Assembly (NCBI RefSeq): GCF_004341165.1
Contig: NZ_SLZR01000004.1
Coordinates: forward strand, 124,001 to 188,000
Source of the DNA: Reinekea marinisedimentorum
GTDB lineage: Bacteria > Pseudomonadota > Gammaproteobacteria > Pseudomonadales > Natronospirillaceae
Reading direction: 5' to 3'
DNA length: 64,000 bases
Position 1 is the first letter of the stretch. Every line of letters begins with the position of its first letter. The position numbers were made by a program, and so were the translations under genes. The notes beneath the pieces were generated by a model. The model had not been told where the DNA came from. It searched no databases and saw only the letters and a list, made by a program, of their open reading frames with translations. Positions 25,994-29,674 of the stretch are shown here, piece after piece.

Positions 25994-26776
25994 CTAACCG
26001 ATGTTTTGCTGATCAGACTCTTCAATTGGTGCAAAATCTTCATCTTTTAATGCAACCGCATCTTCAATTTTAAAGTTTTTATCCAGCTGCTTCAGCACAC
26101 CGCACATACGTTCCATACGCTCATCCTGAGCATGCTGGTGATCCAATAGTGCCTTAATTGCATGCGCGGTCACATCGGGCATATCGGCCACACCGTAGGC
26201 ATCGAAGCCCATTTTCTTGGCCAGTTCCTGCTGCTGATCGGAAAACGGCACCACCTTTTTGCCATTCTGTCGAACAACACGCCCCGGAATACCAACCACC
26301 GTCGCCGATTCCGGCACAGCCTTGGTAACCACAGCATTAGAGCCAATGCGCGCATTCTTTCCGACGGTAAAAGGCCCAAGTACTTTCGCGCCGGCGCCGA
26401 CGATTACGCCGTCTTCCAGCGTTGGGTGGCGCTTGCCCTTTTCCCAGCTGGTGCCGCCCAGAGTGACGCCCTGATAAACCGTAACGTCGTCGCCAATAAT
26501 GGCGGTTTCACCGATCACCACGCCCATGCCGTGGTCGATAAAGAAGCGCTTGCCGATGGTTGCGCCGGGATGAATTTCAATACCGGTAAACCAACGCGCT
26601 ACCTGCGATGACCAGCGCGCCAGCGTTTTTAAGTTCCACTGCCACAGCTTGTGGTTAAAACGGTGAAAGATAATGGCGTGCACGCCGGGATAGTTCAGTA
26701 AAACTTCCACCCAGCTTCGTGCTGCCGGGTCTCTGTCAAAGACACTTTTAATATCGTCTTTCAGCTGAGAAAACAT
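25994..26776 (-). CDS. cysE: Serine O-acetyltransferase CysE
   Basis: 260 residues, first step of cysteine synthesis (L-serine plus acetyl-CoA to O-acetylserine). An alpha-helical N-terminus ([25 protein letters not shown]) leads into a left-handed beta-helix of hexapeptide repeats ([41 protein letters not shown]) with the catalytic His-Asp pair in FIDHGMGV. Length matches the pseudomonad type rather than the 273-residue E. coli enzyme. Its ATG overlaps the trmJ stop (TGATG). It normally sits next to iscR, supplying cysteine for Fe-S assembly; here 13.6 kb separates them. Confidence 0.95.
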
Positions 26777-27534
26777 CAGTTTCTCCTCAATTTTTTATCA
26801 ATATGGCTGAGCATTCCACGCAGAATATTGGCTTCTACTTCATCCGGAAGCGCACGCAGTACAAACCGTCGCAGTTTGGTCATCAGGTGCCTCGGGTTAT
26901 TGGGGTCGAGAAACTCAATATCAACCAACACCTTCTCCCAGTGATCAAACAAACCTTCCAGCTGCTTGCCTTTTGCCAGCGGTTGATCCCATTCTACGCC
27001 CCATTCGGGCTTTTCCTGCTCTTGCGATGCAATGGCCGACATGCGCAATTCGTAACACAACACTTGCACAGCAGATGCCACATTCAGGGAACTATAGTCC
27101 GGATTCGCCGGTATATTCACATGCACATGGCAGCGCGCCAGCTCTTCGTTGGTTAAACCGCTGCGCTCACGGCCAACCACCAGAGCGACCTTTGCATCCT
27201 CTGGCAAGGCCAGAACCTTAGTGGCCATTTCCCGCGGATTCACCAGTGGCCAAGGCAGGTTGCGTGACCGGGCCGATGCGCCAATAACGAAATCGCAATC
27301 GGCTACCGCCTCTTCCAGAGTATCTGTGACAACCGCCCTCTCAAGAATATCCGTCGCCCCTGAAGAAAGCGCCGTCGCCTCTTCGGAAGGGAACTGTTTA
27401 GGCTCAACCAATACTAAATGATGAAGCCCCATGGTCTTCATAGCACGGGCAGCCGAGCCAATATTACCGGAATGAGAAGTATGAACCATTACAATGCGTG
27501 TACGGTTTAGAACATTGAGCGCGGAGTTTGTCAT
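26776..27534 (-). CDS. trmJ: tRNA (cytidine/uridine-32-2'-O)-methyltransferase TrmJ
   Basis: A SPOUT-family enzyme of 252 residues that methylates the ribose of position 32 in tRNAs. Family segments: [42 protein letters not shown] and [15 protein letters not shown], the last two forming the knotted SAM site. ATG at 27534 is preferred over an upstream TTG at 27591 because family alignments begin here; no strong ribosome site distinguishes them. Coupled to cysE by a TGATG overlap; divergent from suhB, the usual gammaproteobacterial arrangement. Confidence 0.93.
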
Positions 27535-27745: not shown

Positions 27746-27756
27746 GCTTTTTAACA
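27746..27756 (+). promoter_or_regulatory. boxA-like Nus-factor element in the suhB leader
   Basis: GCTTTTTAACA differs from the rRNA boxA core GCTCTTTAACA at one position. It lies 70 bp upstream of the suhB ATG in a leader of roughly 140 nt. Further down, GTGTGAG (27813-27819), a boxC-like sequence, overlaps the ribosome site. In E. coli, SuhB with Nus factors represses its own translation through leader boxA and boxC elements. Confidence 0.5.
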
Positions 27757-27825: not shown

Positions 27826-28572
27826 ATGCAACCTATTTTAGCCATAGCATTGCGCGCTGCTCAAAGCGCTGCCGATAAACTCAACTACACCGTTTTGAAC
27901 ATTCTGTCCTTAACAGCAGATGGTGATTCCCGCATGGATGTGTTCAACAAATCTATCGAGGACGCCGCCTGGCGTGCCCGTAAGACCATCCGTAATGCCC
28001 ACACCCAACACCACATTGATTCCGTACAGCTTGGCCTGGAAGAAAGCCGCGACTGGGACCGACAATCACGCTGGGTAATTGATGTAGCTTGTGGCGAAGA
28101 AAACCTGCGTAACGGCCTGCCCGGTTTTGTTGTAAACGTCGCGCTTTACACCAAAGACAAGATCGACTGTGTCGCCATTGTTGACCCGATGACCGGCGAT
28201 TACATGACGGCCTTTAAAGGCCGTGGCGTTCAGTTCTCGGACAAGCGTGTTCGCGTTGAAGCTGCGCCATTGAAAGAAGCTATCTGCGCCATCGAAACCA
28301 AAGACATTCATGTTCTGAGCAATTGGCATCAAAAAGTAAAAGCGCTGCGCGTATCTGGCTGTGCACTGCAAAACTTTGTTAACTTGGCCGCCGGTCGCAT
28401 CAATATCGCCGTTGCCCAAAATATGTCACCGTCAGATATGGCCAGCGCCATGCTGATTGCACAGGAATCCGGTGCGCTGACCGGCGATGCTAATGGCCGC
28501 CCGGTTAAAATGGACAAAGGCGAACTGATGGCCGCAGCACCAAAGCTGTTTAAGCAGCTGATGGCGCGATAA
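27826..28572 (+). CDS. suhB: SuhB homologue with altered inositol-monophosphatase motif
   Basis: 248 residues of the inositol monophosphatase fold in the position of suhB (divergent from trmJ). E. coli SuhB is both a phosphatase and a partner of NusA in rRNA antitermination. Here the key motif WVIDPLDGT reads WVIDVACGE: D86 is kept, but the second metal-ligand Asp is C89 and the catalytic Thr is E91. The glutamates at E72-E73 (LEES) and an Asp equivalent to the WD motif (SPSDMAS) remain. Catalysis is therefore probably lost or changed while the fold is retained (VAIVDPMTGDYMTAFKGRG). ATG at 27826 aligns with the family start; a longer frame to 27688 lies in the leader. Confidence 0.85.
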   Translation: MQPILAIALRAAQSAADKLNYTVLNILSLTADGDSRMDVFNKSIEDAAWRARKTIRNAHTQHHIDSVQLGLEESRDWDRQSRWVIDVACGEENLRNGLPGFVVNVALYTKDKIDCVAIVDPMTGDYMTAFKGRGVQFSDKRVRVEAAPLKEAICAIETKDIHVLSNWHQKVKALRVSGCALQNFVNLAAGRINIAVAQNMSPSDMASAMLIAQESGALTGDANGRPVKMDKGELMAAAPKLFKQLMAR

Positions 28573-28609: not shown

Positions 28610-29674
28610 ATGCAAGCAATCGATATTTATGCCGGTAGTGAAGCCTACCGGCACATTGAACAGCACGGCTTAAAACCGGAACACACCCGCATGATTATCG
28701 GTGCATCCGGTGGGCCCAAGTGGTTTGTACTCAGTCATCTCGACCGCTACCTGGTAGAGCACTGGCTTCCCAAAATTCCACACAAGATAGATTTAATCGG
28801 CAGCTCAATCGGCGCATTCCGCATGGCATGCTATGCCAGTAAAGACCCGCTGCAAGCGATTAAAAACCTGGAATCGAACTACGTTAATCAACGTTACTCA
28901 GCAAAACCGACGGCTCGCGAAGTCACTCAGTCCGTTGAAGAGATGCTGGATGTCATAGCCAGCGCTGAAGACCTGCAACATCACCAGCTGCGCAAGCTGC
29001 ACATTGTTGCGGCGCGCACCAAGGGCTACTGCAGTTCAGAGAACAAGTTTGTTCAGTCACTGGGGCTGGCCGGCGTAGTTCTGGGAAATTATATGTCGCG
29101 CAATACCTTGCCGATGTGGTTCGACCGGGTCATCTTTCAGTCACCCGGTGGTGAATTACCGGTTGAAAACTGGGATAAATTTAAAACCAGCGCCATTACT
29201 CTGTGTGAAGAAAACTACCGCGATGCCCTCTTTGCCAGCGGTGCGATACCCATCGTTATAGAAGGGGTTGAAACACCCTATGGCGCACCTAAAGGCCTGT
29301 ACCGTGATGGCGGCATGGTGGATTACCACTTTGACCTACCCTTCAAACCCAAAGATGGTCTGGTACTGTACCCGCACTTTTCACCGGTCATGAAACCCGG
29401 CTGGTTTGATAAATCCATTGCCCGACGCAAAATTTCGGCACACAACTATTCGCATACTGTCGTGATTTGCCCGAGCCGGGAATTTATTGATTCGTTACCG
29501 CATCAGAAGATTCCTGACCGGAAAGACTTTGAAAAAATGACCACCGAAGCCCGCATTGACTACTGGAAAACCGCCGTAGAACAAAGCAAGCAGATTGCCG
29601 AACAGTTCGACCAGTGGCTAAGTCAGGGCGCGCCTATCTCAGCGGTCCAGCCAATAGAAGCGATTGCAAACTAA
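28610..29674 (+). CDS. Patatin-like phospholipase family protein
   Basis: 354 residues with the patatin catalytic set: oxyanion loop GASGGPKW (31-38), nucleophile elbow GSSIG with S66, and the catalytic Asp in YRDGGMVD (about 236). No signal peptide, so cytoplasmic. Patatin-like proteins hydrolyse acyl esters of phospholipids or other lipids; the actual substrate is unknown. It follows suhB by 37 bp on the same strand and may be co-transcribed. Confidence 0.85.
   Translation: MQAIDIYAGSEAYRHIEQHGLKPEHTRMIIGASGGPKWFVLSHLDRYLVEHWLPKIPHKIDLIGSSIGAFRMACYASKDPLQAIKNLESNYVNQRYSAKPTAREVTQSVEEMLDVIASAEDLQHHQLRKLHIVAARTKGYCSSENKFVQSLGLAGVVLGNYMSRNTLPMWFDRVIFQSPGGELPVENWDKFKTSAITLCEENYRDALFASGAIPIVIEGVETPYGAPKGLYRDGGMVDYHFDLPFKPKDGLVLYPHFSPVMKPGWFDKSIARRKISAHNYSHTVVICPSREFIDSLPHQKIPDRKDFEKMTTEARIDYWKTAVEQSKQIAEQFDQWLSQGAPISAVQPIEAIAN

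Follow-up and report, generated by a model that had tools for sequence, protein, structure and literature searches.

SuhB poses a puzzle, being a phosphatase found within the rRNA transcription complex, and in E. coli, where a single protein carries both activities, nothing but mutation has set them apart. The suhB locus of Reinekea marinisedimentorum (Natronospirillaceae, Pseudomonadales, Gammaproteobacteria), analysed here within a window of 64,000 nt, raises the question of whether the two activities have also come apart in nature. The original prediction for this locus was a regulator-only SuhB with a broken phosphatase motif, and it started from the premise that the Nus role of E. coli SuhB had been reported not to need catalysis. 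That premise is borne out by PMC4807359 and PMC6614801, according to which the phenotypes of suhB mutants can be relieved by E. coli SuhB without its inositol monophosphatase (IMPase) activity. Three features define the locus and its anomaly:

27826 to 28572, + strand: suhB orthologue of 248 aa whose active site is not intact (open reading frame, Pfam PF00459, alignment to SuhB of E. coli and to 21 orthologues from the family)
26776 to 27534, - strand: trmJ, the divergent gene by which the suhB locus is recognized, with its start at an internal ATG (NCBIfam NF011694)
28072 to 28098, + strand: WVIDVACGE replacing the metal-binding motif WVIDPLDGT, with D87 changed to C and T89 to E (translation, alignments)

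The translated suhB frame runs on the + strand from an ATG at 27826 to a stop at 28572, and residues 2-246 of its product match Inositol_P PF00459 with 57.9 bits (cut-off 27). The SuhB equivalog NF008027 is the best NCBIfam family match for this protein, yet the score of 85.8 bits lies far below the cut-off of 332. The suhB/trmJ arrangement is common to E. coli and the Reinekea window, and the proposed conservation of the place beside trmJ was confirmed by the NF011694 match of the divergent neighbour (285.5 bits, cut-off 280). By locus, the gene is a divergent suhB orthologue; under the NF008027 model it is no member. We infer the IMPase fold of the protein from the near full-length Pfam profile match, because the AlphaFold model, built from a 2-sequence alignment, was too poor (pLDDT 51). 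The gene 3' of suhB (28610-29674, + strand, 354 aa) has a sub-threshold match to patatin-like phospholipases (20.2 vs 27.7 bits).

How far does the loss of the active site go? Residues 83-91 of the window SuhB read WVIDVACGE where the E. coli counterpart is WVIDPLDGT; the motif DPxDGT has become DVACGE, and only D84 remains of D84, D87 and T89. The predicted loss of the second metal Asp and of the Thr held in four alignments (C at 87, E at 89). As active-site residues we take a list of eight to hold for the IMPase family (K34, D44, E67, E68, D84, D87, T89 and D212). In alignment, K34 is replaced by D and D44 by I, and the third metal Asp, D212, is kept within MSPSDMASA. E67 and E68 correspond to V and Q in most alignments, the paralogue alignment placing the EE of GLEES at 67-68 instead. 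With K34, D44, D87 and T89 gone and E67/E68 dependent on the alignment, four to six of the eight residues are therefore lost, and D84 and D212 remain. Moreover, some nine residues are missing from the loop that corresponds to the region around residue 160 in E. coli. As these alignments indicate, the original prediction understated the extent of the change. A sequencing error can be dismissed because all 22 genomes of the family have a degenerate copy with an open frame. Judged by its metal motif, the window SuhB falls outside the catalytic IMPase group, and it is predicted to lack phosphatase activity.

To the extent that sequence allows a judgement, the window SuhB works as a Nus factor would. 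It shares with E. coli SuhB (IMPase and Nus factor; PDB 2qfl, 6ib7, 6tqn) the trmJ neighbour, an N-terminal MxPxLxIAxRAA, the K251 equivalent and a leader boxA, but the two are 28% identical, and the metal site is intact in E. coli while four to six of the eight residues are missing here. Among proteins of solved structure, it matches best the Nus factor SuhB proteins of PDB 8wdq and 9j90, presumably from Pseudomonas (85.5 bits, residues 1-246), in which, unlike in the window protein, WVIDPLDGT is intact.

The degenerate state is not a peculiarity of one genome. Within Natronospirillaceae (f1), a degenerate SuhB with an open frame lies at the trmJ locus in 22/22 genomes (10 genera). For the order, 391 genomes were searched with a profile built from intact SuhBs. 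By hand count, 130 of them had no match better than 1e-70, two of the 391 having no match at all; among the weak-score genomes are some fragmented assemblies as well as f14, whose matches read in genus g23 lack trmJ as a neighbour. Sixty regions were taken from 69 selected genomes of the order that were searched (G166, G221, G239, G256, G159, G316, G210 and G144 were left out, and G056 was already among the earlier loci), and these regions together with the first 31 loci, minus three f14 hits, make up 88 suhB genes of the order. Copies that had lost at least one of E67, D84, D87, T89 and D212 were called degenerate. By this definition 70 of the 88 are degenerate and 18 intact, which is not a frequency because 57 of the 88 were picked for weak canonical scores. 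The degenerate copies are spread over f1 (22), f36 (11), f38 (9), f37 (8), f26 (5), f19 (5), f44 (4), f39 (3), f6 (2) and f14 (1). All 70 have trmJ nearby, within 400 bases in 69 cases and at 957 bases in the f14 copy. The three f14 hits of genus g23 (L137-L139) were left out of both counts because they are intact but trmJ is not in the stretch read; they keep the active site and have G, S or P at residue 251.

Beyond the order, a survey of the class covered 187 genomes, 184 of them from outside. A match at 1e-80 or better was present in 171 of the 184 (hand count), but such a score does not establish that the site is intact, since degenerate f37 copies reach 1e-95. Fourteen weak or borderline genes from outside the order were examined. 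L248 and L250, from other orders of the class, are degenerate SuhBs beside trmJ, and L252, likewise from another order, appears degenerate, with trmJ absent from the stretch. L239 and L242 are intact with trmJ beside them. L243, L244, L245, L247, L249 and L251 are intact, trmJ is absent from their stretches, and they may be paralogues; L240, L241 and L246 were counted in neither class. L239 presents the reverse case, keeping the active site beside trmJ, but with Glu at position 251.

Does the change mark a single clade? In the family it is a shared trait, all 22 genomes being degenerate; for the order the idea did not stand. On a NusA tree of 99 genomes (11 of the 29 called intact were judged by profile score only), at least four state changes are needed, two of them forced by well-supported branches. 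A single clade for all 70 degenerate copies was rejected (p 0.007), a test weakened by the very long branch of one f39 row, and a single clade without f39 and f44 was not rejected (p 0.62). Still, f44 is split too, with well-supported branches separating its intact genera from the degenerate ones. The rejection of one clade for all 70 implies that loss probably occurred more than once, and one old loss followed by at least one further loss would be the simplest reading.

What selection has kept in these proteins can be read from 34 positions that do not vary among 19 intact SuhBs, a set to which the E. coli protein belongs. Retention among the 70 degenerate sequences was 1% for T89, 4% for K34, 6% for D44, 7% for E67, 13% for E68, 27% for D84, 31% for D87 and 46% for D212. 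The eight active-site positions (1-46%) are thus among the least retained, the remaining 26 having a median of 71% (p 1.3e-4 by Mann-Whitney; like all p-values given here, it ignores the relatedness of the sequences and serves for description), and the three active-site positions outside the definition of degeneracy are retained in 4-13% (p 0.003). V40, S102, D118 and Y194, outside these eight positions, are about as poorly retained.

A different reading of this pattern would be that the active site has been rebuilt, giving an enzyme of new or altered activity. Such an enzyme would fit the uniformity of the replaced positions within some families (EPFHGY in 7/11 of f36, DAIQGQ in 5/5 of f26) and the Glu that one alignment keeps at 67-68 of the window protein. 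However, the genera of Natronospirillaceae differ at their active-site positions, where D87 is represented by C, A, V, S, T, L, Q or D; with such variation the genera show no replacement catalytic set in common, and we consider a rebuilt enzyme very unlikely.

The residues that align with the E. coli contacts to NusA lie at the C-terminus:

28552 to 28563, + strand: codons K243 to M246, K243 and M246 aligning with E. coli K251 and L254 (alignment; contacts from PMC6614801)

K251 and L254 are, according to PMC6614801, tested contacts of E. coli SuhB to the AR2 domain of NusA, which were replaced jointly. Position 251 is K in the window SuhB and K or R in 67/70 degenerate SuhBs. Among 20 intact family paralogues, for which the C-terminal alignment is weak, it is K in 2, another residue in 17 and a gap in 1 (K/R in 67/70 vs K in 2/20, Fisher p 6e-14); one further paralogue, L227, had been dropped, its frame having only 79 aa. 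Position 254 is M in the window SuhB and mostly other hydrophobic residues in the 70, so the comparison of AR2 contacts comprises two residues of which the second (L254) has drifted. At position 184, where a published variant of the E. coli protein has its R altered, R is found in 0/70 degenerate and 14/19 intact SuhBs.

A second line of evidence comes from the leader of the gene:

27746 to 27756, + strand: boxA-like element GCTTTTTAACA, one mismatch to GYTCTTTAANA, 80 nt 5' of the ATG (consensus from PMC5725501)
27758 to 27769, + strand: possible 4-bp hairpin directly 3' of the boxA-like element (seen by eye)

PMC5725501 gives GYTCTTTAANA as the boxA consensus, describes repression of E. coli suhB through a leader boxA, and reports boxA near suhB in 34/55 genera, in three more with unannotated suhB homologues, and in one case 82 bases from the start. 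The boxA-to-start distance of 80-86 in f26 resembles this last case. A boxA within one mismatch is present in 20/22 leaders of Natronospirillaceae, and perfect boxA elements were found in 11/11 leaders of f36, 5/5 of f26 and 7/9 of f38. Altogether, 48/70 degenerate leaders have a boxA within one mismatch and 24/70 a perfect one; in 812 control windows taken at these loci the corresponding numbers are 3 and 1. The search at one mismatch found none in f19 (5/5 leaders), f39 (3/3), f14 (1/1), 6/8 of f37, 3/4 of f44, 2/9 of f38 and 2/22 of f1; boxA control is not universal, since f19, f39, f14 and 6/8 f37 leaders are without the element. Among intact suhB leaders of the order, 1/18 has a boxA. An association between boxA and degeneracy (48/70 vs 1/18) is not claimed, as the tree offers no more than 2-3 contrasts that are independent, too few for a statistical test to have any power. 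By eye, a candidate hairpin (GTCC, a four-base loop, then GGAC or GGGC) recurs in the leaders of the seven genomes of this genus, and the order of parts, a boxA-like element followed by a possible hairpin, is reminiscent of phage nut sites.

Could another family member have taken over? The R. marinisedimentorum genome (G000) has three further Inositol_P members, namely an IMPase-like one on C7, a CysQ that passes its cut-off and a CysQ-like one that narrowly misses it. Non-suhB family matches number 51 in total, and the catalytic set is intact in all 20 that were aligned. These CysQ and IMPase-like paralogues share Inositol_P PF00459 with the degenerate SuhBs, but differ from them in the intact catalytic set, in having Lys251 in only 2 of the 20 and in lying elsewhere in the genome. 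The original prediction had proposed looking for a second, intact IMPase gene: the C7 paralogue has all eight active-site residues, but it does not qualify as an E. coli-type SuhB. It reaches 163 bits against the cut-off of 332 of that model, has Asp at position 251, and the neighbours read are other genes, unlike those of the suhB locus. A second canonical suhB, which the original prediction had named as evidence that would count against it, was accordingly not found in this paralogue. Seven family genomes have two family matches only. For five of these genomes (G003, G004, G006, G020 and G021) the second match is CysQ-like, three of them scoring 212-225 bits (cut-off 229), and IMPase-type activity seems dispensable there because the sole other member is CysQ-like.

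The intact C7 paralogue would permit a reading in which it has become the Nus factor, leaving the window gene with some other task. We regard this as very improbable, given the D at position 251 of the C7 paralogue, the five genomes that have no such paralogue and CysQ-like members only, and the location of the boxA-like element at the degenerate gene in the suhB leaders searched. Highly improbable, too, is a ligand sensor that kept the NusA contact and binds a metabolite in the old pocket. The fixation of R139 (69/70) and E222 (70/70) in degenerate SuhBs might faintly hint at it, but the former active-site residues vary among genera and there is no pointer to any ligand. A decaying suhB without function, for which the loss of most of the catalytic set could be cited, deserves hardly any credence against an open frame in 22/22 genomes, a retained locus and leader element, and dN/dS ratios of 0.01-0.30 in 14 pairs (dS >1 in six of them), ratios which indicate that the gene is under purifying selection.

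The preferred reading is a pseudoenzyme that kept the transcription role, and its would-be partners are present in the family. NusA, including its AR2 end, occurs in 22/22 family genomes, and a similar C-terminus was seen by eye in the other genomes of the order that were taken; NusB lies above its cut-off in 22/22 family genomes. Each of 13 rrn leaders from five family genomes has a boxA within one mismatch in its last 400 bases (a search run without a control), and TTCGTGTGGGC, which we take to be boxC-like, is present in 12/13 of these leader stretches, again without a control. The 16S rRNA gene was not found in the G000 assembly (99.95% complete), and of the 21 other family genomes 16 gave the same result, with 11 candidates scored per genome and 9/14 controls detected; this absence may come from collapsed repeats, masking or a limit of the search.

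The window SuhB would join NusA, NusB/NusE and NusG on boxA-bearing rRNA leaders, would help RNA polymerase to make and fold rRNA, and would repress its own synthesis via the leader boxA; NusA binding, a function in rRNA synthesis and autoregulation are thus predicted. The regulator-only interpretation of the original prediction gains support from the sequence tests: the active site is poorly retained, K251 is kept, NusA AR2, NusB and rrn boxA are present, and the leader has a boxA-like element. The two jobs of SuhB appear to have been separated in nature because the phosphatase parts are lost and the features of the rRNA role are kept. We hold it as very probable, on sequence evidence, that the window gene is a true suhB orthologue whose product is a pseudoenzyme, most likely with a transcription role only.

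Catalysis-independence is already known from E. coli, where IMPase-dead SuhB proteins are laboratory mutants, unlike the Reinekea type, which is the natural state of whole families. A search of titles and abstract beginnings, mainly of open-access literature, found no report of a naturally degenerate, clade-wide SuhB, and the natural, clade-wide loss of the active site in SuhB seems new. With somewhat less confidence than for the window gene itself, we think it probable that SuhB has no function besides the Nus role in many related families of Gammaproteobacteria, catalysis having been lost once at the base of this large group and a further time in one or more other lineages, with boxA autoregulation kept in many. 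Lineages could then do without the phosphatase over long evolutionary times, and what selection preserves would be the face that binds NusA. The residues still conserved in degenerate SuhBs are candidates for this Nus face, and the proteins themselves could serve as ready separation-of-function reagents. Genes at the trmJ locus throughout the order that are annotated as inositol monophosphatases may often encode non-enzymes.
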